Source: a virus. Taken from it: a DNA stretch of 42,937 nt. The notes under the pieces were generated by a model. That model did not search any database. It had not been told where the DNA came from and saw only the letters and a list, made by a program, of their open reading frames with translations. Location of the stretch: positions 1 through 42,937 of IMG/VR virus record IMGVR_UViG_3300034156_000034; one strand, written 5' to 3'. Within the stretch, counting starts at the first letter, position 1; every line of letters begins with the position of its first letter. This document shows, in pieces, positions 5,805-35,404 of this stretch. Position numbers and translations under genes: made by a program.

Positions 5805-5952
5805 GCTATCGTCAATGACCATTGCAGAGTGGCGCTATTGGGGAGAACGTGCGCAAGAGGGCGGGATTTACCACAATCACACATATGCACGAATATGCTT
5901 TCAGTGCGCGGAACTACTGCGCACACAGCAGGTGCGCTATGCTAACCGATAG
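5791..5952 (+). CDS. Small protein, unknown function
   Basis: A 53-residue protein, ATG 5791 preceded by GGAAGTGGAG. It overlaps the preceding gene by 14 bases and the lysozyme gene by 14 bases. It contains W-R-Y-W-G near the middle and FQCAELLRTQQ near the end, ending YANR. The strict chain of overlaps (14 bases at each of three junctions from small terminase to lysozyme) supports it as real. I do not recognise a family. Confidence 0.6.
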   Translation: MLTAELSSMTIAEWRYWGERAQEGGIYHNHTYARICFQCAELLRTQQVRYANR

Positions 5953-6598
5953 CGAGCTAGATCAGACGTGCGAGGTCCTGATTAAGCACGAAGGTTTGAT
6001 CCCGTGGCTTTACTGCTGCACTAAAGGCTTCGTTACCGTCGGAGTAGGGGACAAGGTTAGTCCTAAAACGGTATTGACTATGCCCTTTGTTCATTTGCTG
6101 GACGGTAGCCACGCCATGACAGAGGAAAAAAGTCAAGCGTTTATTCGCGTGCAAAATCACTTTGCAAAAGGCTTGACAGCAGGCGACTATCGTGTTTGTT
6201 CTGACCTGCGACTCGATGAGGAGTTTTGCAATCGCAGGCTGCGCTCCAGAATCAAGAGTGAATTTGTGCCGGCTATTGAGAAGCACTGCCCGCTCTTTGC
6301 AAACTACCCGACACGAGTGAAGTTTGTTCTTGTGGACATTGTATACAACGTCGGTGTTGTTGGCTTCGCTGCGTTTGATCAGCTAATTATTGACTGCAAT
6401 AGTCTGCAATTCAGTAAAGCAGCCGAGCAAGTGCATACGCAGAAGGAAGGCGAAGATCCACGCGATCCTAAGACGTGGGGCAGGCGCAATACTTGGCGGC
6501 GCAACACTATGCTACTCGCTCACAGTGCGCAGGTAACTCTTACAGCAAATAGCATTGACAGATTGTCGATTGCACAAGCAACAAAGGGGAACAGATAA
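5939..6598 (+). CDS. Endolysin, GH24 lysozyme-like
   Basis: A 219-residue muramidase that should cleave the glycan strands of peptidoglycan at lysis. KHEGLIPWLYCCTKGFVTVG (residues 16-35) aligns with the T4 lysozyme active-site loop: E18 matches Glu11 and T33 matches Thr26, but the position of Asp20 is Cys27. VDIVYNVGVVGFAAF (about 138-152) matches the conserved N-V-G region, and TWGRRNTWRRN near 188-198 matches the usual R-R...E region. No signal peptide or anchor is visible, so export would rely on the holin. The start at ATG 5939 overlaps the previous gene by 14 bases. Larger frames upstream are not needed. Confidence 0.8.
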   Translation: MLTDSELDQTCEVLIKHEGLIPWLYCCTKGFVTVGVGDKVSPKTVLTMPFVHLLDGSHAMTEEKSQAFIRVQNHFAKGLTAGDYRVCSDLRLDEEFCNRRLRSRIKSEFVPAIEKHCPLFANYPTRVKFVLVDIVYNVGVVGFAAFDQLIIDCNSLQFSKAAEQVHTQKEGEDPRDPKTWGRRNTWRRNTMLLAHSAQVTLTANSIDRLSIAQATKGNR

Positions 6599-6808
6599 AT
6601 GCATAAGCTGCGGATTGTTTTACCGCCAGACACGTGCACAGCGTCTATTGAGATGGACGGTAAACCGCTAGATCACGTAAGCAGGATCGAGTTAGACGTA
6701 AATGCAAATAGCCTTACTGCGGTCCGGCTTACGCTGTTTGCGCATGTCGTGATCGAGGGTGATTTGAAGGAGGCGGAAATTATACACGTTGAAAGGGAAC
6801 ACACATGA
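6599..6808 (+). CDS. Small protein in lysis cassette
   Basis: A 69-residue soluble, mostly beta-strand protein that starts directly after the lysozyme stop codon and ends in an ATGA overlap with the holin-like gene. The upstream ribosome site is AAAGGGGAA. There are no cysteine clusters beyond one Cys and no membrane segment. Its strict coupling to lysozyme and holin suggests a role in lysis timing or simply operon membership. The function is unknown. Confidence 0.6.
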   Translation: MHKLRIVLPPDTCTASIEMDGKPLDHVSRIELDVNANSLTAVRLTLFAHVVIEGDLKEAEIIHVEREHT

Positions 6809-7146
6809 CTGACAGCAGACCAATTCGACAAACGATACAGGCAATCTTGGGGCTTGCAGTAGCGTGCTTGCCCACAATCGTAGCAACGCCTTTCGACTGG
6901 CGCGCGCTACTGACTGCGCTTGTCGGCGGCGCTGTACTGCTTGTGACCAACCCTCGACTGGTCACCGGTCTGCGCAAAGGCATGCCTATTGCTGGCAGCT
7001 CGATGGTAGCTCCGAAGCGAAAGCAGCGCTTTCCACAAGCAGTGCCCAATATTCCCACAAGCAGCGAAGATGCAAAAACGCCTGTGCTTCCGAAAGGCGT
7101 GCGAATCCACACCAAGATGCCGCCAGACGATCCAACCAAAACCTGA
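6805..7146 (+). CDS. Putative holin, two membrane segments
   Basis: A 113-residue membrane protein. Two hydrophobic segments are visible, about residues 9-27 (IRQTIQAILGLAVACLPTIV) and 33-50 (LLTALVGGAVLLVTNPRL), separated by a short loop and followed by a long basic, Pro-rich soluble tail (KGMPIAGSSMVAPKRKQR and onward). This fits a class II holin that opens the inner membrane for the upstream lysozyme. ATG 6805 overlaps the previous stop and has GAAAGGGAA upstream. The call rests on topology and position only; an unrelated membrane protein is possible. Confidence 0.55.
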   Translation: MTDSRPIRQTIQAILGLAVACLPTIVATPFDWRALLTALVGGAVLLVTNPRLVTGLRKGMPIAGSSMVAPKRKQRFPQAVPNIPTSSEDAKTPVLPKGVRIHTKMPPDDPTKT

Positions 7147-7155
7147 GAGGAACCT

Positions 7156-7572
7156 ATGCGAACAATTCATTACACCACGCATCTTGCCCTGGTCTGTGCT
7201 GCTACGCTCTTTGCGCTGACACTTGCATCTGCCTGTAAGACAGTGCCTGTCAACTCCGATAGCGTGTACGGCGCTGTTGTTGACTGCGCGAAGGTCAACC
7301 CGCAAGCATCGGCTGCGCTTGCGTCGGTTGAAACGTGCCTTGTTGGCGCAATGGCGCAGGACTATTCCGCATGCCTCACAGGGCTCGTCACTGGCGGTCA
7401 CTTCGTGATCGATGAGGTTGCTTGTGTCGTCGCCTGGTACGCGCAGCAGCCGCAAGCAAAGCAGCTACAGCAGCACGCGAAAGCGTCTGCGCCAACAGAC
7501 GTGACAGTGAGCAGTCACGCGAAAGCCTGGCTGTCTTCGGAAGCGATCTCGATTCGCAACCCGTATCGGTAG
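7156..7572 (+). CDS. Exported lipoprotein-like protein
   Basis: A 138-residue protein with an N-terminal signal sequence: basic start, hydrophobic core LALVCAATLFALTLA and a LASAC site near residues 23-27 that is close to, but not a perfect match for, a lipobox. Further cysteines at VVDC, ETC, SAC and VAC suggest disulfides in the periplasm. ATG 7156 has AGAGGAACCT upstream. It follows the holin-like gene, so an outer-membrane lysis role (spanin-like) is possible, though no coiled coil or proline-rich stretch is obvious. Confidence 0.6.
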   Translation: MRTIHYTTHLALVCAATLFALTLASACKTVPVNSDSVYGAVVDCAKVNPQASAALASVETCLVGAMAQDYSACLTGLVTGGHFVIDEVACVVAWYAQQPQAKQLQQHAKASAPTDVTVSSHAKAWLSSEAISIRNPYR

Positions 7573-13289: not shown

Positions 13290-13748
13290 ATGAAAGCACG
13301 CTTGTTTGTTGGTCTGTTTGTTGCTGCTGCTCTGCTGAGCGGCGCTGCGTACGCGGCGAAGAAAGTGATTTTCTTCGTCGATACTGACGTCCCGACGTCG
13401 GGTGAGAAGTCCTCGATCACGACGCTGCAAGGGCAGGCCGCTGCGCCCTACAATGTCGTGATTCGCAACTCGCGCAAGGCTCGCCTGCGGGCAACTCCCG
13501 AATCGGCCGACTACCTGGCCGGGGCTATTCCGCCCAACTATCGTGACGGAGGCATTGACAGCGGTACGCCGCTGCACACTGTCTACGATCCCACGAATCC
13601 GCCAACACCGCTGACGCTTGTAAGCGCACAAGCGCTTGTGCGCAACGGCGGCACTATCCACATTGTCGGTGGAGGCACGGCTACTCTTGTGGTGTCCGGA
13701 AGCACTGCCACTATTTCAACGTACGTCAAGCCGGATGGAGGGCCGTAG
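13290..13748 (+). CDS. Exported paralogue of the next gene
   Basis: A 152-residue protein with a textbook signal peptide: MKAR, hydrophobic core LFVGLFVAAALLSG and an AYA-A cleavage site near residue 23. The mature part begins KKVIFFVDTDVP and contains VVIRNSRKAR...DYLAGAIPPNYRDG. The same order (ILFFVDGPVP, FRNARKA, VAGAVPEAYR) is found in the next gene, so the two are tandem paralogues. The C-terminal third (about 95-152) is extra and Gly/Thr/Val-rich, beta-like. ATG 13290 follows GAAAGG. A signal peptide in the head-gene block is unusual. Confidence 0.7.
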   Translation: MKARLFVGLFVAAALLSGAAYAAKKVIFFVDTDVPTSGEKSSITTLQGQAAAPYNVVIRNSRKARLRATPESADYLAGAIPPNYRDGGIDSGTPLHTVYDPTNPPTPLTLVSAQALVRNGGTIHIVGGGTATLVVSGSTATISTYVKPDGGP

Positions 13749-13750
13749 TC

Positions 13751-13987
13751 ATGCGCGAACCGAAGAAAGATCAGATCCTGTTTTTCGTTGACGGGCCTGT
13801 GCCCAGCAACGAAGACAAAGCAGCCGCCGAAGCGCTGGGCACCAAGTGCTTCCGCAACGCTCGCAAGGCGGGTAGTCCGCCTGTGGGAGGCTGCCGCGTG
13901 GCCGGCGCTGTTCCCGAGGCCTATCGTCGGTCGAAGGCTGTCCAGGTTGTGACCGCACCGGTGAACGGCAAGCCGCAGGGCAAGTAA
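13751..13987 (+). CDS. Small head-region protein
   Basis: A 78-residue protein with GGAGGG 9 bases before ATG 13751. It shares ILFFVDGPVPSNEDKAA, the (F/V)RNARKA core and VAGAVPEAYRRS with residues about 25-90 of the preceding protein but has no signal peptide. Small proteins of this kind follow capsid genes in related phages (from memory) and may be capsid decoration or cement proteins; that role is not shown by the sequence. Confidence 0.6.
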   Translation: MREPKKDQILFFVDGPVPSNEDKAAAEALGTKCFRNARKAGSPPVGGCRVAGAVPEAYRRSKAVQVVTAPVNGKPQGK

Positions 13988-21353: not shown

Positions 21354-22141
21354 GTTTTGATTCGCTAGAACAGTCGCAGCAAGACTCGCAGCCTATTGAC
21401 CTGTTCCAGTTCAAGCAGGGCTCGGCAGCTTGGCGCTATACCAATTACCCAAAGCAGATCCTGAAGATTGACTTTACGTGGGTGCCGCGCGCAATCACGC
21501 GATCCACAATCACCAAAGCGGACACTGTTCCGAAAGATACAATTGTCGTCAATCTTCCGTTTGACGACAATTTAGTGCCGTCGCTTCGCCTCGGCATACT
21601 GTCGAAGCCGACGCAAGTGATCATCTTTCGCACGCAGGCCGACGTCGATTTCGCGCGCGTAATGTGGCGCGGGCGCGTCGCCAAGACAATTCGCAATGGG
21701 CCGCACGCGGCTATTACGTGCGAGCCCATCTTTGGCAACCTGCTGCGCATGGGAATCACACAACCGTACTCGCGATCTTGTCGGCATGTCTTTGGCGGGC
21801 CAGGCTGCTTTGTGGATACCGACAGTTACAAAGTTCACGCGCAAGTTGCGTCTGTTGACGGGGCGAAGGTGCAACTGCTGTTGCTTACGCCGCCCAACTT
21901 TATCGGCGGAACATTTGTGACCGCAGGAGGAGAGTCACGCATGGTAATTGCACAGTCCGGATCAACTGTGACACTCATTCGACGCGTCTCTGTTGCCGCT
22001 GCCGATTTCGTTGACGTGATTCCCAGCTGCGATCGCTCGCTCGGAACCTGCGACACTGTTTACCACAACGCGGGCAACTTTGGCGGATTCCCTGGGATCC
22101 CACTGATTAACCCCTTCACTGTCTCAAGGTCGGTGTTCTAA
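21350..22141 (+). CDS. Minor tail protein, BR0599/DUF2163-like
   Basis: A 263-residue protein in an ATGA overlap with the previous gene. Its C-terminal half has paired cysteines: CRHVFGGPGCFVD (about 142-154) and CDRSLGTCDTVYHNAGNFGG (about 228-247) followed by FPGIPLINPF. This is the pattern of BR0599-type or lambda gpL-like proteins, some of which bind an iron-sulfur cluster in the tail tip. The N-terminal half is beta-rich. Whether the cysteines hold a metal here cannot be told from the sequence. Confidence 0.65.
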   Translation: MSFDSLEQSQQDSQPIDLFQFKQGSAAWRYTNYPKQILKIDFTWVPRAITRSTITKADTVPKDTIVVNLPFDDNLVPSLRLGILSKPTQVIIFRTQADVDFARVMWRGRVAKTIRNGPHAAITCEPIFGNLLRMGITQPYSRSCRHVFGGPGCFVDTDSYKVHAQVASVDGAKVQLLLLTPPNFIGGTFVTAGGESRMVIAQSGSTVTLIRRVSVAAADFVDVIPSCDRSLGTCDTVYHNAGNFGGFPGIPLINPFTVSRSVF

Positions 22142-25100
22142 TGGGCTGGGCTGCACTTGTTGTAACACTCGCGGCTTTCGCGTACTCGTGGTATCAACTG
22201 CACAACCTGCCTACGCAGGCAGGCCAGCAAATCAAGAATGTAACGGGACCCACCGCTGAAGAGGGTATCGCGATCCCTGTTCTGTTCGGCTCACGCGTGA
22301 TCCAGTCGCCTAATACAACCTGGTACGGTAAGCAGGCGTCAGCGCGCAAGGATGACGGCTCTATTGACTACTGGATCGGATTGCAACTTGCGCTCTGTCA
22401 CGGCAAGCTGGACGAAATTACACAGGCGTATGTAGCCGAGTCCGATACTGAGTTGATGGCTCGGCCGGTAACTGAAGATAAGGTTGTGTGGTTGAGCGCG
22501 CGGGGTAGCGGGACCGGACGACTGAATGCTACGGCTGTACCTGAGGTAGATCTCGGCCAGGTCATGCTGCGCATGGGTGCCGTCAACATAGCGGGCACAG
22601 TCAGCGCAGGATCTAGCGGTAGCTTCGCCAATAGGTGCATGGGCATCCTAGACGGGCATGCTCCGAGCTATTACGGCGTCGCTATGGTCGAAGGCACCAA
22701 GGAATTGTACGTAGGCACATCGCCTCAAATTCCAGGACAGTCGTTTCTGTGCAAGCGTATCCACACAAGGCACGGCGGCGCTGTTGCACAGTGGTACGAC
22801 GCGAAGTCTGAAATCAGACTGGGCTACTCCATTGATGACCTATGGAAGTACAAGCTATTGGACGCAGGAGTTGCAACAGACTACTCGGGAGCAAGCTACG
22901 ACGATTCTGCATGGCTCGAAGGACCGGGCGGTGTTGGTAGCGAGAACGAAGGCGTCCACGCCTGGCAGCATGTAGGCGCGACAAGTCCTGTGGACTACCC
23001 CATTCCTCCCGTAAGAACTCAGCTCACAGAAGCCGACTACCCGGGGTTGATCATCAACAGCGGCGTTACAATTCGCCAAGTGAAGCGTGGGATCATACTG
23101 TGGCTGCGTAGAGACATCGGCAGATTACCTGCACAGGATCTAGGCGTGCGTTGCTGGCACGATGACTCTGGTAAGCTGTGGTTCAATGGTACGGAAATCG
23201 CATTGAAGCCTGAAGAGACAAGCTCAGATCCGAATGTTGTCGCTAAGCTGCACTTCACGTCCACAGCAGTAATACCTGCGGCGTTGGTCAATCCGAATGG
23301 GCCGAACGTCATCGCATTCAAAGTAGTAGACAGCTTCGATCAAGCTACCGGAAAGCGCATTGGCACGAATCAGTGCATCTATGCCGGTGTTCAGGTCGGG
23401 CTTGACGTGTTTAATCCGCGCAAGACTGTCGACATGAATCCCGTGCACATCATTCGCGAAGCGCTCACTTGTCCTATTGTTGGTGCGGGCGAGCCAGACA
23501 GCTCTATCGGAGCGTCGTTTGCAGCATGCGCTGATAAGTGCTTCATTGAAAACTTGGGGCTGTCTCTTATTTGGGACGAGCCCACCAACTACAAAGACTT
23601 CATTGCAGACATTCTGCGCTACATAAGCGGCGTGTACTATGTGGATATGCTGACAGGCAAGTATGAAATGAAGTTGCTTCGTGAAGACTACGTAGAAGCC
23701 GATCTACTTTTACTCGACGGCACGAACACAACCACGATCGCAGACATCGAGAATCAAGCGATCGGCCAGTTAGTCAACACGATCACAGCAACATACTCTG
23801 TTTCGCCGCGCGGTAAGAATGGAAGCGTGACTGTACGCGAGCAAGGGCTCATAGACGCGCAAGGTGGGATAGTTGATCAGCGTGTCGACTACCCGGCAGT
23901 ATCCACGTCCTACGTTGCCGGCAGGCTTGCCTTGCGTGATCTGCGTGTCTTGTCCTGCCCGCTGCTTGGCTGCACTGTGGGCGCCAATCGCGAGGCGATG
24001 TATCTTCGCCCTGGCGACGCGTTCAAGCTCAACCGGCCCGACGTCGGTATTGAAAACGCTATCATGCGCGTTTCTGAGATCGACTTCGGCGACGGTATCA
24101 AGAACGAGATCACAATCAAGTGCATGGAAGACGTCTTTTACCTTCCGGATCTGCCCACGGTCGCGAGCAATCCGCCACTGTCGCTTCCGCCCCCTAATGT
24201 AAAAGCGGACATTGTGACTGACGATTATCAGACAGCGCACGTGACCGACGCGCGCAATAAAGGCTGGGTCGAAACTGCTTTCCACGGTGCAGCCTTTAGT
24301 GAAGGCGACGTATTCGCTGGCTTCACTGAGATCGCCCCCGGCGTAATGGAACGCAATTTCACGGGACCCTTAACTGCGGATATGTTTGACGGCGTGAATC
24401 CTTACACAGGTGTTGCTGGAAGTGGCACAGGCTCCGGAGAAATGTGGATGTTCGGGCGGGTTGTGCTTGCCTTCGAGCCGAATGCAGGCGCGATCACTGG
24501 CCGCGCCTTGCAGGGTCCCTACGTTGTGGACGATCTCGGCGGGCACTGGGTAGATTACGGCTTACCTACGCAAGCATTTGTTGCGACGAAGGCGCGCATA
24601 CACAGACATCCTGCCTTTGCACAGAGCGCCGCCTTCGCGGCGCAGATGATCTTCAAGGCGCGCAACGGCACTGCGTACTCGGCATACTTTCTGCAATTGC
24701 AGACCGCGAACGTTGTGCTTGGCATGACTGAGCAAACATGGGAGTACGTCAACGCCATGTTCGTGGACACCACTGAGCTACTTACGGTAGATCAGCTTGC
24801 TACGCGGCCTGCGAATCAAGATGGCATGCTTGTGCTCTCAGCTACTGCGACAAACAGTGCACAGGACTTCGCAGCACACTTCCAGTCGATGGCGCTCAAT
24901 ACACGCGAGATCCCTGCAGGACCCTGGACGATTACGCCGTCAATGGCGAACGTAACAGGCGCTGACGTCGGCTCGACTACTTCGCTCGGTATGAAGTTCA
25001 CGATTATCGGCGCGCATCCACGCGCACTGTTCGAAGTGCTTCACCCCGCGACGGCGCCGACGGGCGTTTACGAAATGGTGGCGCCTATCGTGTACCAGGC

Positions 25101-25560
25101 GCCTGCAATTCCGCTTGAAGTTGGTGACGAGCTTGTGGTTACGCCGACGATTCACACGACGTCTGCGACAGCGGCGACTTTGACAATTGAGTACAACGCC
25201 GCAAACGCAATCCGCATTCAGATACCGCGCGGAAAGCCGATCACAACTGTCGCCGACATTGATGAAGACTGGTTTGACGTGACTGTGGTCGACGGCGTGA
25301 TCCCTGCTTTCGGCTCACACCGCAAGCTGCGCGTGCACGGCACAGGACCACTTGTCGGCATTGTTGCGGATGGCCTGCGTGCATGTCAGCTTACTGTGCT
25401 ATTCGCAGATGCGATGCAAATTACAGTTAACGGATCGCCTTCGTCGGGCGCACCTATTGAGAATGCAGAGGCGACAAACGTAGGCGCCGACGTCAAGGCT
25501 ATCCTAATGCTGTATTTGTTCACTGACTCAGGCACTTCAACTTTTTGGAGGATCTCATGA
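22141..25560 (+). CDS. Tail tip / host-specificity protein (J-like)
   Basis: An 1139-residue central tip protein. The N-terminus has a hydrophobic segment (WAALVVTLAAFAYSW) and then GPTAEEGIAIPVLFGSRVIQ with TTWYG, the classic start of J-like tip proteins. Residues about 590-680 (SYVAGRLALRDLRVLSCPLL; later MRVSEIDFGDGIKNEITIKC) match the Phage-tail_3 region. The C-terminal third is beta-rich and probably forms receptor-facing domains. ATG 22141 overlaps the previous stop by one base, and the stop overlaps the fibre start (ATGA). Confidence 0.75.
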   Translation: MGWAALVVTLAAFAYSWYQLHNLPTQAGQQIKNVTGPTAEEGIAIPVLFGSRVIQSPNTTWYGKQASARKDDGSIDYWIGLQLALCHGKLDEITQAYVAESDTELMARPVTEDKVVWLSARGSGTGRLNATAVPEVDLGQVMLRMGAVNIAGTVSAGSSGSFANRCMGILDGHAPSYYGVAMVEGTKELYVGTSPQIPGQSFLCKRIHTRHGGAVAQWYDAKSEIRLGYSIDDLWKYKLLDAGVATDYSGASYDDSAWLEGPGGVGSENEGVHAWQHVGATSPVDYPIPPVRTQLTEADYPGLIINSGVTIRQVKRGIILWLRRDIGRLPAQDLGVRCWHDDSGKLWFNGTEIALKPEETSSDPNVVAKLHFTSTAVIPAALVNPNGPNVIAFKVVDSFDQATGKRIGTNQCIYAGVQVGLDVFNPRKTVDMNPVHIIREALTCPIVGAGEPDSSIGASFAACADKCFIENLGLSLIWDEPTNYKDFIADILRYISGVYYVDMLTGKYEMKLLREDYVEADLLLLDGTNTTTIADIENQAIGQLVNTITATYSVSPRGKNGSVTVREQGLIDAQGGIVDQRVDYPAVSTSYVAGRLALRDLRVLSCPLLGCTVGANREAMYLRPGDAFKLNRPDVGIENAIMRVSEIDFGDGIKNEITIKCMEDVFYLPDLPTVASNPPLSLPPPNVKADIVTDDYQTAHVTDARNKGWVETAFHGAAFSEGDVFAGFTEIAPGVMERNFTGPLTADMFDGVNPYTGVAGSGTGSGEMWMFGRVVLAFEPNAGAITGRALQGPYVVDDLGGHWVDYGLPTQAFVATKARIHRHPAFAQSAAFAAQMIFKARNGTAYSAYFLQLQTANVVLGMTEQTWEYVNAMFVDTTELLTVDQLATRPANQDGMLVLSATATNSAQDFAAHFQSMALNTREIPAGPWTITPSMANVTGADVGSTTSLGMKFTIIGAHPRALFEVLHPATAPTGVYEMVAPIVYQAPAIPLEVGDELVVTPTIHTTSATAATLTIEYNAANAIRIQIPRGKPITTVADIDEDWFDVTVVDGVIPAFGSHRKLRVHGTGPLVGIVADGLRACQLTVLFADAMQITVNGSPSSGAPIENAEATNVGADVKAILMLYLFTDSGTSTFWRIS

Positions 25561-28358
25561 TGCGCGTCGTTTTACGTGTTGCCGCTGTTCTGTTCGGCAT
25601 CGCATTTGCTGGCGTGTTGTTGCCTGCGCAAGGCTCGGCAGCCACGGTCACGCCGGCTGTGGACGAGACGACGATCAGCGCGCAGAAGCCGGCGCTTGGC
25701 TACCCATCTAAGAAGCTTCTGCATTCACAGCAGCAGCCCATTACCGAGGTGTTGCCCGACGGGCAGACGATCACCTATCGAGGGGGGGACACGGTCACGC
25801 GGGCGTCGCGAGACAACGGGCCGCTCCCTGTAACCCTCAAGGGTGGCCTGACCGCCTCGTGGACCGGCACCGTCACCGGCAGTGGAACGATGACGGGAAC
25901 CCAGACCACGACTACCACGCCAACGGCCACGGTCACCGACACAAACACGACGACCAACACGCTGACCGACACCCTCACCCAGACGACTACAACCACGCCG
26001 ACGGTCACCAACACCGCGACGGACACGGAGACGCTCACACGAACAATCACGGTGACGGCCACCGCAACTACAACTCAGTCGGGGTCATCTACCAGCACCA
26101 GCTACGGTACGTGGTCCAACATCACGACAGCAACTGCAAATAACAGAGGCGTAGCAGTCAATCCGACCAACGGCGATGTTTTTGCTGCTGTCTTGGGTGG
26201 TGAGGTCCAAAAGCTCGCAGGCGGTACAGGAACGTGGTCGAACATCACGACAGCAACTGCAAATAGCGTAGGAGTTGCTGTCAACTCGGCCAACGGCGAT
26301 GTGCTCTACGCGTCGATCAGTGGCTACGTTCAAAAGCTAGCCGGTGGCACTGGTACATGGTCCAACATCACGACGGCAACTGCGCTCAATTGGGGTGTTG
26401 CCGTCAACTCGACCAACGGTGATGTGTTTAAGTCCGTGTATGGCTATGGTGTGGACAAGCTCTCAGGGGGGTCTTGGGAACGCGTAGCAACAGACACGCT
26501 TTCATCTGTTGGCGTAGCGGTCAACTCGGCCAACGGCGATGTGCTCTACGCGTCGATCAGTGGCTACGTTCAAAAGCTAGCCGGTGGCACTGGTACATGG
26601 TCCAACATTACGACAGCAACTGCAAATAACAGAGGAGTTGCCGTCAACTCGGCCAACGGTGACGTGTTTGTAGGCGTGTCAGGAGGCTACGTTCAAAAGC
26701 TAGCCGGTGGCACTGGTACATGGTCCAACATCACGACGGCAACTGCAGATAACAGAGGAGTTGCCGTCAACTCGGCCAACGGTGACGTGTTTGTAGGCGT
26801 GTCAGGAGGCTACGTTCAAAAGCTGTCAGTTGTCACCACCACGAGCACCTCGACAAACACATCTACTTCGACGGCGACAGCGTCTCATACCGAAACTGAG
26901 ACGTACACGGCAACGTCTACCAGCACGTACACAGCCACGGTCACTCAGTCAGCAACCAGCACCTATACCAGCAGCCACACCGCAACCTCTACCAGCACTA
27001 GCACGCGAACCGTAACTAGCACCGCGTCCGCAACGAGCACGTACACCTACGGCTCGGCTTCCACGCACACTGATGTGCAGACGGGAACCTCGGTCGACGT
27101 TAGAGACGCCCCGACTATTGGCATGCCGGAGCTGATTGTCTGCGGCGCAGGCGGGCTAATCTGGCAAACGACGGCGACAAATACAGGCACAGCAACAGGC
27201 ACGCACACAGTTACCGCAGTTTGCGCTTCTACCTCTGTTGGTCCGACGGTGAAAGCAAAGAACACTTTCACGATAGACGGTGTATACGCAGACATGACTT
27301 GTGGTGAGTTCAGTGATCCATTGGGTGCAATAGGTTGTACGCTAGGCGGAACACAGCCCGCGTGGCAAACTGCTTTTATTCAGCATGACGGCATAAGTAC
27401 GCGCTTCGGGTCACGTGCTGTCCAGCAAACAAGTCTTGTAGCAGGAGACAATGGTGGGACTGCAATAGCTGCCGGCATTAGCGTAGGCAGTATGCTATTT
27501 ACGTCAGACGTTCCGTTTTCCGGTCCCAACTTGACTGCCGCAGGGCACGCCAGCGAAGACTTGACGGCCACAACACCGCTGTCTTCATCAGGTGGTGACT
27601 ACGCTTTTGCGTACAGGACAGGCACCAACACCACTACAAACACTGCAACAGGCACAAGCACTAGTTGTCCGCTCAATCGCGCCTGCACAATGGTTCGCAC
27701 GTCAACCACTACGGCAACGGCGACGGTGACCAACTCAGTAAACGGGCATGCAATAAGCATCAACCCCATACTGAACTACACCGACGTCGGAGCGCCCGCA
27801 ATTGCAGACATTACGGGCGATACAGGCCGCGTTGCTATTTTCAGCAATACCCACTCTGTTGGATCTGGCCCTTACTATTCCGACACGCCAGGAAGCTCGG
27901 CGTACGCACTACCTCGCACAAGCAGCGACGGCTATTTGTCATCAAACTGGATTCGCGGCAGCTCGACTACATTCAAGGTACAAGCGAATGCTAGCGACAT
28001 GACCACAGACACGGCCAACAATTGGCTTGACGTCGCGTATGACGGCGCTACCGTGCGAGCTGGAGCTAGCATTGCACTCGACGGGTCAGTGTCGGGGATG
28101 ATGTCAAACGGTGTGGGAACGCTGTCTTGCTACATCCGTGTAGTGGTTGACGGTGCTAGGATTGAACCGCAGAGCGATAGTAGTCCAATGCACGGTAACG
28201 ACACGCAATATAGAGCAATGAGCGTAACAACGTACGGCCTTGTTACAGGGCTAGCTGCCGGAAGTCACACGTTTGCGCTACAAGCTACCGCCAACGGTGG
28301 TAACACGTGCACGGTTCCCGCCCATCGGGGAATGCTCAAGGCGACAATCGTCCAATGA
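25557..28358 (+). CDS. Exported Thr-rich fibre with tandem propeller-like blades
   Basis: A 933-residue protein. Two adjacent ATGs (25557 and 25560) follow GGAGG. Residues 1-29 look like a signal peptide ending GSAA. A first Thr-rich stalk spans about 100-180 (TTTTTPTATVTDTNTTTNTL and similar). Six tandem blades of about 41 residues follow (185-428), each with TWSNITTAT, GVAVNSANGDV and YVQKL, resembling a six-bladed beta-propeller. A second Thr/Ser-rich stalk spans about 430-510. The C-terminal part is beta-rich with Cys pairs and ends in a lectin-like sandwich (GLAAGSHTFALQATANGG). Position suggests a receptor-binding fibre, but a signal peptide is not expected on a virion protein; a secreted adhesin or decoy is the alternative. 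Confidence 0.65.
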   Translation: MMRVVLRVAAVLFGIAFAGVLLPAQGSAATVTPAVDETTISAQKPALGYPSKKLLHSQQQPITEVLPDGQTITYRGGDTVTRASRDNGPLPVTLKGGLTASWTGTVTGSGTMTGTQTTTTTPTATVTDTNTTTNTLTDTLTQTTTTTPTVTNTATDTETLTRTITVTATATTTQSGSSTSTSYGTWSNITTATANNRGVAVNPTNGDVFAAVLGGEVQKLAGGTGTWSNITTATANSVGVAVNSANGDVLYASISGYVQKLAGGTGTWSNITTATALNWGVAVNSTNGDVFKSVYGYGVDKLSGGSWERVATDTLSSVGVAVNSANGDVLYASISGYVQKLAGGTGTWSNITTATANNRGVAVNSANGDVFVGVSGGYVQKLAGGTGTWSNITTATADNRGVAVNSANGDVFVGVSGGYVQKLSVVTTTSTSTNTSTSTATASHTETETYTATSTSTYTATVTQSATSTYTSSHTATSTSTSTRTVTSTASATSTYTYGSASTHTDVQTGTSVDVRDAPTIGMPELIVCGAGGLIWQTTATNTGTATGTHTVTAVCASTSVGPTVKAKNTFTIDGVYADMTCGEFSDPLGAIGCTLGGTQPAWQTAFIQHDGISTRFGSRAVQQTSLVAGDNGGTAIAAGISVGSMLFTSDVPFSGPNLTAAGHASEDLTATTPLSSSGGDYAFAYRTGTNTTTNTATGTSTSCPLNRACTMVRTSTTTATATVTNSVNGHAISINPILNYTDVGAPAIADITGDTGRVAIFSNTHSVGSGPYYSDTPGSSAYALPRTSSDGYLSSNWIRGSSTTFKVQANASDMTTDTANNWLDVAYDGATVRAGASIALDGSVSGMMSNGVGTLSCYIRVVVDGARIEPQSDSSPMHGNDTQYRAMSVTTYGLVTGLAAGSHTFALQATANGGNTCTVPAHRGMLKATIVQ
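26109..26840 (+). repeat. Six tandem 117-123-bp coding repeats
   Basis: Units start at about 26109, 26232, 26355, 26472, 26595 and 26718. Bases 26280-26368 and 26520-26608 are identical over 89 bp, and units 5 and 6 are identical over more than 70 bp. DNA-level identity, not only protein similarity, indicates recent duplication or gene conversion. Confidence 0.9.
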
Positions 28359-28363
28359 CCATT

Positions 28364-28657
28364 CTACTGCAGGCACGGGACGCCGCCGGCGGGATAGCTC
28401 GCGGCGCCTTGTCCTGTGCTTCTGGCAGCGCCGGCCTGGCACGACGGAATGCCTTCGATGCACGGAACGCCCACGCAGATGACCACGTCACCGCATCCCC
28501 AGCACGTCTGCCACTCCGACGTTGCTTCGTAAAAGACGCAGCAGACGCTAGGATCAGAGCCCACGGCAGCGGGCAAAGCGTCGGGCGCGGGTACTTTAAG
28601 CCCCTCGCCGCAGCCGATACCAAGCAAAGCAAGCATTGTCAAGAAAAATCGTTTCAT
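28364..28657 (-). CDS. Cys-rich lipoprotein-like protein on the opposite strand
   Basis: A 97-residue protein read against its neighbours, ending 5 bases from the fibre stop. ATG 28657 has a perfect AGGAGG 7-8 bases upstream. The N-terminus MKRFFLTMLALLGIGC is a lipoprotein-type signal with Cys at 16; the lipobox (GIGC) is imperfect. The mature part has eight or more cysteines (CCVF, CWGCGD, CVGVPC and others), suggesting disulfides in the periplasm. An isolated exported lipoprotein between a fibre gene and membrane-protein genes fits a superinfection-exclusion or host-altering accessory gene; that role is inference. Confidence 0.6.
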   Translation of the reverse strand: MKRFFLTMLALLGIGCGEGLKVPAPDALPAAVGSDPSVCCVFYEATSEWQTCWGCGDVVICVGVPCIEGIPSCQAGAARSTGQGAASYPAGGVPCLQ

Positions 28658-34683: not shown

Positions 34684-35006
34684 TGCGCGTCCCTTAGCGC
34701 TTTGATGGCCGCAAGCTCGCGAGCGAGCCAGCGCGCGTGCCCAGCGCGGCCTGGCACTTCCATGCACATCATTCGGATCTGGCGCTGCACAAGACGATGC
34801 ACGCGCCTGCTTGCCTCCTGCTGCTGATAGCGCGCTTGCGTGCGAGCGAGCCAGCGAGCTACTACGCGCAGCTCGACTACGCTATAATCCACTATCGCAG
34901 GTAGCTCTGTGCAGGTTTGGGCAACGCTGCGCGATGTCTCGAAGCAAACGTTACGCTGTGCGCCGATCCAGTCGAGCGCCATTTGGTTTAAGAGTGGAGC
35001 TGTCAT
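34680..35006 (-). CDS. Small helical basic protein
   Basis: A 108-residue protein, ATG 35006, in ATGA overlaps with both neighbours. The sequence is helical and Arg-rich in the second half (ARWLARTQARYQQQEASRRV), with no signal peptide and no zinc site. The strict coupling to two exported proteins suggests shared function, but nothing in the sequence names it. Confidence 0.55.
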   Translation of the reverse strand: MTAPLLNQMALDWIGAQRNVCFETSRSVAQTCTELPAIVDYSVVELRVVARWLARTQARYQQQEASRRVHRLVQRQIRMMCMEVPGRAGHARWLARELAAIKALRDAQ

Positions 35007-35404
35007 TGCGCACCTACCAGGCTGTCAGCCGAGGTATCACAACCCATGACCGCGCACCAAGCGCCGTCAGCGTCTGGCGCCGCGTCGGCGTGCTCCCACG
35101 GATCCGCGTCGTCAATCTCGAAGGGGGAAGCGTAGGCAGGCGGCTGCGTCGGCGTACAAACTGCCAGGGCCGCTTGGCGCTCGCTGCGTGCTGCGCGCAC
35201 GACAGCTAGCAAGGCACGTCGCTGCGGGGCCTGCGACGGTGGATCTAGCTGCATCTCCCACAGGCGCGCTTGCACGTCGACTAGCGTAGCCTCTGCGCTG
35301 GCTACGGCAGCAGACTGCGAACATTCCGAGGCGCATGCGTCGCAAGTGGCGAACGTCCAGCCTGCGACGGCGAGAACCAGGGCGATTTTACTAATAGTGC
35401 GCAT
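35003..35404 (-). CDS. Exported Cys-containing protein
   Basis: A 133-residue protein, ATG 35404, with AGGAGT 6 bases upstream. The first 25 residues (MRTISKIALVLAVAGWTFAT) form a signal peptide followed by CDACASEC, so disulfide formation or a lipid anchor is possible. The middle is helical (VASAEATLVDVQARLWEMQL) and the end is acidic with two more cysteines. First gene of a three-gene coupled set (35404 to 34216). Confidence 0.6.
   Translation of the reverse strand: MRTISKIALVLAVAGWTFATCDACASECSQSAAVASAEATLVDVQARLWEMQLDPPSQAPQRRALLAVVRAARSERQAALAVCTPTQPPAYASPFEIDDADPWEHADAAPDADGAWCAVMGCDTSADSLVGAQ

Follow-up and report, generated by a model that had tools for sequence, protein, structure and literature searches.

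Uncultured phages with predicted export signals on a tail-fibre-type and a head-region protein

The fibre gene and its surroundings

The DNA analysed here, called the window, is 42,937 bases long and constitutes one IMG/VR virus record. Matches to PHROG families give it a siphovirus-type gene order (terminase, portal, scaffold, major head protein, adaptor, tail genes, tape measure and tail-tip proteins), with a DNA polymerase on the minus strand after the tail-tip region. The first 25 kb has no DNA-level match among cultured phage records, and the closest cultured tail-tip proteins, those of Septimatrevirus, Titanvirus and related phages, are 31-38% identical. A lipoprotein- or spanin-like protein is encoded on the plus strand at 7156-7572, adjoining endolysin-like (5822-6598) and holin-like (6805-7146) genes, and a small exported-looking protein with 4.5% Cys (MRTISKIALVLAVAGWTFATCDACA) is encoded on the minus strand at 35003-35404.

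The tail-tip (J/megatron-like) protein, of 1139 aa, is encoded on the plus strand at 22141-25560. It opens with an uncharged hydrophobic helix (22141-22203, plus strand) that resembles the iris/penetration helix of phage R4C and is a signal-peptide look-alike; the tail-tip proteins of cultured relatives also begin with a hydrophobic helix. The last part of the gene (24190-25557, plus strand) encodes a C-terminal extension that had no match in a PDB profile search and whose homologues are encoded directly before signal-peptide fibre genes in other contigs. Directly downstream, in a gene order matching that of R4C, lies the gene for a signal-peptide-bearing protein of tail-fibre type (25557-28358, plus strand; 933 aa), an open reading frame that was confirmed in place. 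The overlap of the two genes reported in the first-pass annotation is real: the ATG at 25557 shares four bases (ATGA) with the TGA of the tail-tip gene, and direct reading places a strong ribosome-binding site, GGAGGA (25547-25552, plus strand), four bases before that ATG. The fibre protein has no Pfam or PHROG match and none in 50,697 cultured phage records, and scanning of bacterial genomes found no homologues.

A predicted signal peptide on the fibre

Residues 1-28 of the fibre (25557-25640, plus strand) are predicted to form a Sec signal peptide, with a charged start, a hydrophobic core free of charges and, between AQGSA and ATV, a cut site of small residues. On a home-made scorer that looks for n-, h- and c-regions and a -3,-1 cleavage motif, the start of the protein (MMRVVLRVAAVLFGIAFAGVLLPAQGSA, then the cut and ATVTP) reaches 9.9. 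The reference range, set by ten E. coli signal peptides, is 8.9-12.1, whereas the phage's own cytoplasmic or virion proteins mostly stay below 6. Starting from a second ATG makes no difference, and an upstream TTG scores 8.2. The scorer is rough, in that holin-like and spanin-like genes are also high, of 179 candidate starts across the window 12 exceed 8.7, and gp27 of the cultured phage RcHartney reaches 7.9.

The feature recurs in related contigs. Scanning with the fibre found a single relative, L002 (67% identity over 109 residues). The gene upstream in L002 proved to be a homologue of the window's tail-tip C-terminal extension (E 1e-21). With that extension as the query, five more contigs were found, and the next gene in each has a signal-peptide start and a Thr-rich product; three of these contigs are siphovirus-like (L007, L008 and L009), and the neighbouring genes of the other two (L011 and L012) resemble those of other tail types. 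Four further contigs (G007, G008, G009 and G011) came from a scan with the head-region protein described below; the tail-tip gene is present in them, and the next gene has a signal peptide in all four. The set of eleven contigs, the window included, was thus assembled through the tail-tip region or the head-region protein and, apart from L002, not through the fibre's signal peptide. In 11 of 11, a predicted signal peptide is found on the gene that immediately follows the homologous tail-tip region, so that extension and signal-peptide gene co-occur across siphovirus-like contigs and non-siphovirus-type neighbourhoods. A chance hydrophobic start is ruled out by this recurrence. The apparent cleavable signal peptide noticed at first pass is of textbook form and constant at this gene slot across the eleven contigs, and export of the fibre product is a well-supported prediction from sequence.

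Among ten cultured relatives that were checked, four have no gene in this slot (DLP_1, KL1, Kimi and FtMidnight), and none of the slot genes of the other six (SCUT-S3, RcHartney, RcTitan, Eidolon, Langgrundblatt1 and phiH2) has a signal peptide. Further fibre-like genes that lack a signal peptide occur in L007 (9085-10295), L008 (14411-15790) and L046 (8086-10620 of the reverse complement), and in G011 too.

Architecture of the fibre protein

The overall architecture of the protein is fibre-like. Its mature N-terminal domain (residues 29-98; 25641-25850, plus strand) is homologous to the N-terminus of the L012 fibre (36% identity), which combines this domain with blade-like repeats. There follow, all on the plus strand, a first Thr-rich stretch (residues 99-182; 25851-26102; 52% Thr), six repeats of about 41 aa (residues 183-423; 26103-26825) and a second, Thr/Ser-rich stretch (residues 424-516; 26826-27104; 40% Thr and 23% Ser), which bears out the earlier description of two such stretches flanking six repeats. 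The T-x-T alternation in both stretches exceeds that in 2000 shuffles, and Thr at every second residue suggests long beta strands with a Thr face, not a plain mucin-like stalk. An 85-aa module further on (27537-27791, plus strand) is common to the L002 and G011 fibres at 67-80% identity, the part shared with G011 spanning 81 residues at 80%. Such mosaic modules are counted as a fibre hallmark, as are the jelly-roll tip described below and the DPRLTDARxST motifs of L007 and L008.

The repeats are likely, on sequence grounds, to form a six-blade propeller: their sole PDB sequence match is a designed six-blade propeller (E 9e-4). The blade-like repeats of the first-pass annotation stand as repeat units, and the fold itself was not recovered, the AF2 model of this region being poor (pLDDT 42) and set aside as unusable. 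Structure prediction, which that annotation had proposed as a check, was informative for the C-terminus. Residues 790-933 (27924-28355, plus strand), which contain an invariant Cys pair (C858/C918), are modelled with moderate confidence as a TNF/C1q-like jelly roll (pLDDT 68, pTM 0.65), and the model matches phage fibre tips, TNF/C1q domains and TNF-like lectins. The proposed lectin-like end is upheld by these matches, and the domain appears to be a beta-rich C-terminal domain of the carbohydrate-binding type. As a check for disulfides, the Cys of the mature fibres were counted, and their number is even in only 7 of 10 cases.

A second signal peptide in the head region

The gene directly after that of the major head protein (13290-13748, plus strand) also has a strong predicted signal peptide (MKARLFVGLFVAAALLSGAAYA, then the cut and AKK, with the mature protein predicted to begin at residue 23) when the window is scanned with the home-made scorer. 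From residue 22 onwards its product matches phrog_10405 (E 7e-14), whose label 'virion structural protein' derives from PHROG/record annotation and not from mass spectrometry; PDB profile searches gave weak matches. A paralogue that resembles gp12 of DLP_1 and has no signal peptide is encoded next (13751-13987, plus strand).

Cultured homologues of the head-region protein align from about residue 24, and the five inspected all start exactly at the predicted cut (MAAKKVIFF, against GAAYA, the cut and AKKVIFF in the window). The signal segment has accordingly been added cleanly in front of a domain whose other versions begin at that point. Scanning with the window and L009 versions found ten more contigs, in which every copy with an intact 5′ end has a signal peptide. 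Counting the window there are six distinct versions, and all six lineages score 11.2-12.0 on the home-made scorer, against 1.1-7.3 for the five cultured homologues. Divergence is mostly greater in these signal peptides than in the mature part. The case for a signal peptide is arguably stronger here than on the fibre. The window's head-region protein contains no Cys, and disulfides are therefore not a general reason for export.

A convergent lipoprotein gene

Convergent with the fibre gene is a gene for a small Cys-rich lipoprotein of 97 aa (28364-28657, minus strand; MKRFFLTMLALLGIG, then the cut and CGEG). In 6 of the 11 contigs (the window, L002, L007, L008, L011 and G011) the gene after the fibre gene is convergent with it and encodes such a small lipoprotein, with similar starts after the lipoprotein cysteine (CGEGLKVP, CDGAGL, CGGALEVP, CGGIGLGVP, CEGAGLP and CDVGGLTV); none was found beside the fibre of L009. 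The lipoproteins of L002 (starting at 2919, minus strand) and L011 (13124-13384, minus strand) share the C-terminal motif CTSWGRVSxCPDGTVGCD. Lipoproteins with DAGADS and DAGAEA tails may hint at a host among the Myxococcota. The window's lipoprotein has no Pfam or PHROG match and no family-level match to Llp/Cor, and a promoter and terminator scan around its gene gave nothing. What it shares with the superinfection-exclusion lipoproteins Llp/Cor is its place as a small lipoprotein beside what would be a receptor-binding gene, if the fibre itself is the receptor-binding protein. In phage T5 the llp gene adjoins that of the receptor-binding protein, and its product Llp acts from the periplasm to block the receptor (PMC9586334, PMC4728585). 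By analogy with T5 Llp, the window's lipoprotein would probably shield the receptor of an infected cell.

A possible periplasmic route for virion parts

Cryo-EM of roseophage R4C has shown that the N-terminal helix of the megatron lies in the tail channel, that the protein has a C-terminal fibre-binding domain, and that the next gene encodes the bound fibre (PMC10276861); work on FtMidnight has linked such distal tails to pilus-binding phages (PMC10055259). Because the window's gene lies in the corresponding slot, after a tail-tip gene whose product has a hydrophobic start and a long C-terminal extension, its most likely role is that of a virion fibre. The window fibre has no match to the R4C/RcGTA fibre in cultured phages or PDB sequences, and it is classed by analogy as working like that fibre, not as a homologue.

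Phage particles are normally built in the cytoplasm, and the structural proteins of tailed phages are expected to stay there. Phage DGR target proteins are reported to be without signal peptides, and absent signal peptides have been taken as support for a phage, not cellular, origin of surface adhesins (PMC6199706). The uncultured phages described here appear, from sequence, to carry export signals on two proteins that resemble outer virion parts, a tail fibre and a head-region protein. Sec export together with a virion role would place the joining of the fibre to particles after or during lysis. The reading that we put forward, and hold with confidence evenly balanced against doubt, is that the protein serves as tail fibre in a siphovirus baseplate of the R4C/RcGTA type, and that it is made as a precursor for Sec export, matures in the periplasm and joins the particles at lysis. 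Its translation, from the late tail operon, would be coupled to that of the tail-tip gene, and its signal peptide would direct it across the inner membrane, where signal peptidase would cut after residue 28. Folding in the periplasm would probably involve disulfides, given the invariant Cys pair, and the Thr-rich stalks might be glycosylated there. At lysis the mature fibre would meet particles assembled in the cytoplasm and bind to the tail-tip protein by the latter's C-terminal extension, so that the jelly-roll end (and the propeller) would face the host. The head-region protein would take the same export route. The wider form of this reading, in which capsid, tail and DNA are put together in the cytoplasm, the fibre and head-region protein reach the periplasm via Sec, and the two sets are joined only at lysis, is offered more tentatively.

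Among the alternatives, the one that survives best is an exported adhesin that never joins the virion, as when a free fibre, secreted or displayed, occupies receptors along with the lipoprotein and so either excludes superinfection or keeps progeny off debris. The first-pass annotation had likewise raised an exported adhesin, decoy or envelope-displayed protein. Its export part is retained, since the fibre has a predicted signal peptide, and a free adhesin would also fit the adjacent convergent lipoprotein gene, as in T5 llp/oad, and the additional fibre-like proteins, lacking a signal peptide, that some contigs encode (L007/L008 and G011). However, the gene belongs to the late tail operon with coupled translation, and receptor masking leaves the signal peptide of the head-region protein unexplained. 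Exported virion parts are favoured over a stand-alone secreted adhesin because the slot is that of the R4C virion fibre, the gene is co-transferred with the tail-tip extension, and a second structural-type protein bears a signal peptide; the free adhesin is thus unlikely, if a serious contender.

An uncut hydrophobic start that serves as an anchor, either in the particle like the megatron iris/penetration helix or at the inner membrane during assembly, is less likely still. The tail-tip proteins of this phage and its cultured relatives do begin with an uncharged hydrophobic helix, which is virion-located in R4C, but in the compared copies the starts of both the fibre and the head-region protein combine a positive n-region with an A-x-A-like site, and the segment on the head-region protein is added cleanly before its domain. 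The anchor suggested at first pass loses ground because all fibre copies keep these features, with an uncharged core, while their sequences diverge. A wrong start codon, with real translation beginning downstream to give a normal cytoplasmic fibre, is highly improbable and already largely contradicted. The starts are predictions only, but in the window, L007, L008 and L009 the signal-peptide start is immediately preceded by a strong ribosome-binding site, synonymous codon changes between close relatives keep the signal-peptide pattern, and the feature recurs in 11 of 11 fibre genes and 6 of 6 head-region versions.

Conserved signal peptides on two structural-type proteins of a single clade would breach the cytoplasm-only rule, and, if assembly is indeed divided between two compartments, tail assembly would be completed outside the cytoplasm. 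A periplasmic route would open disulfides, glycosylation and folding factors to phage fibres, and the annotation of fibres in metagenomes would be affected.

Comparison with known systems

Open-licence papers yielded no description of a signal peptide on a phage fibre, nor of a similar phage system, in keeping with the first reading of this architecture as undescribed. The nearest functional likeness is the R4C/RcGTA fibre (vBDshSR4C_017), which is also encoded directly after the megatron and is trimeric, has a lectin-like end and is bound to the megatron C-terminal domain; it has 230 aa, binds the megatron by its N-terminus and is described with no mention of a signal peptide (PMC10276861), whereas the window protein has 933 aa, a signal peptide, Thr-rich stalks and repeats, and no sequence match to it was found. 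The gp27 proteins of Rhodobacter phages RcHartney and RcTitan occupy the identical slot in related siphoviruses, and gp27 looks propeller-like by eye; they differ in having no convincing signal peptide (7.9 and 5.9 on the rough home-made scorer), no Thr-rich stalks and no detectable sequence match. In T5 oad/llp a small lipoprotein gene likewise adjoins the receptor-binding gene, but Pb5 is a soluble virion protein, the window genes are convergent, and the lipoproteins are likened by gene position, not sequence. Phage endolysins with signal peptides (such as those of fOg44 and the J5a clade) offer a precedent for a phage protein that uses Sec (PMC8878798), although there the exported product is a lysis enzyme and not a structural protein.
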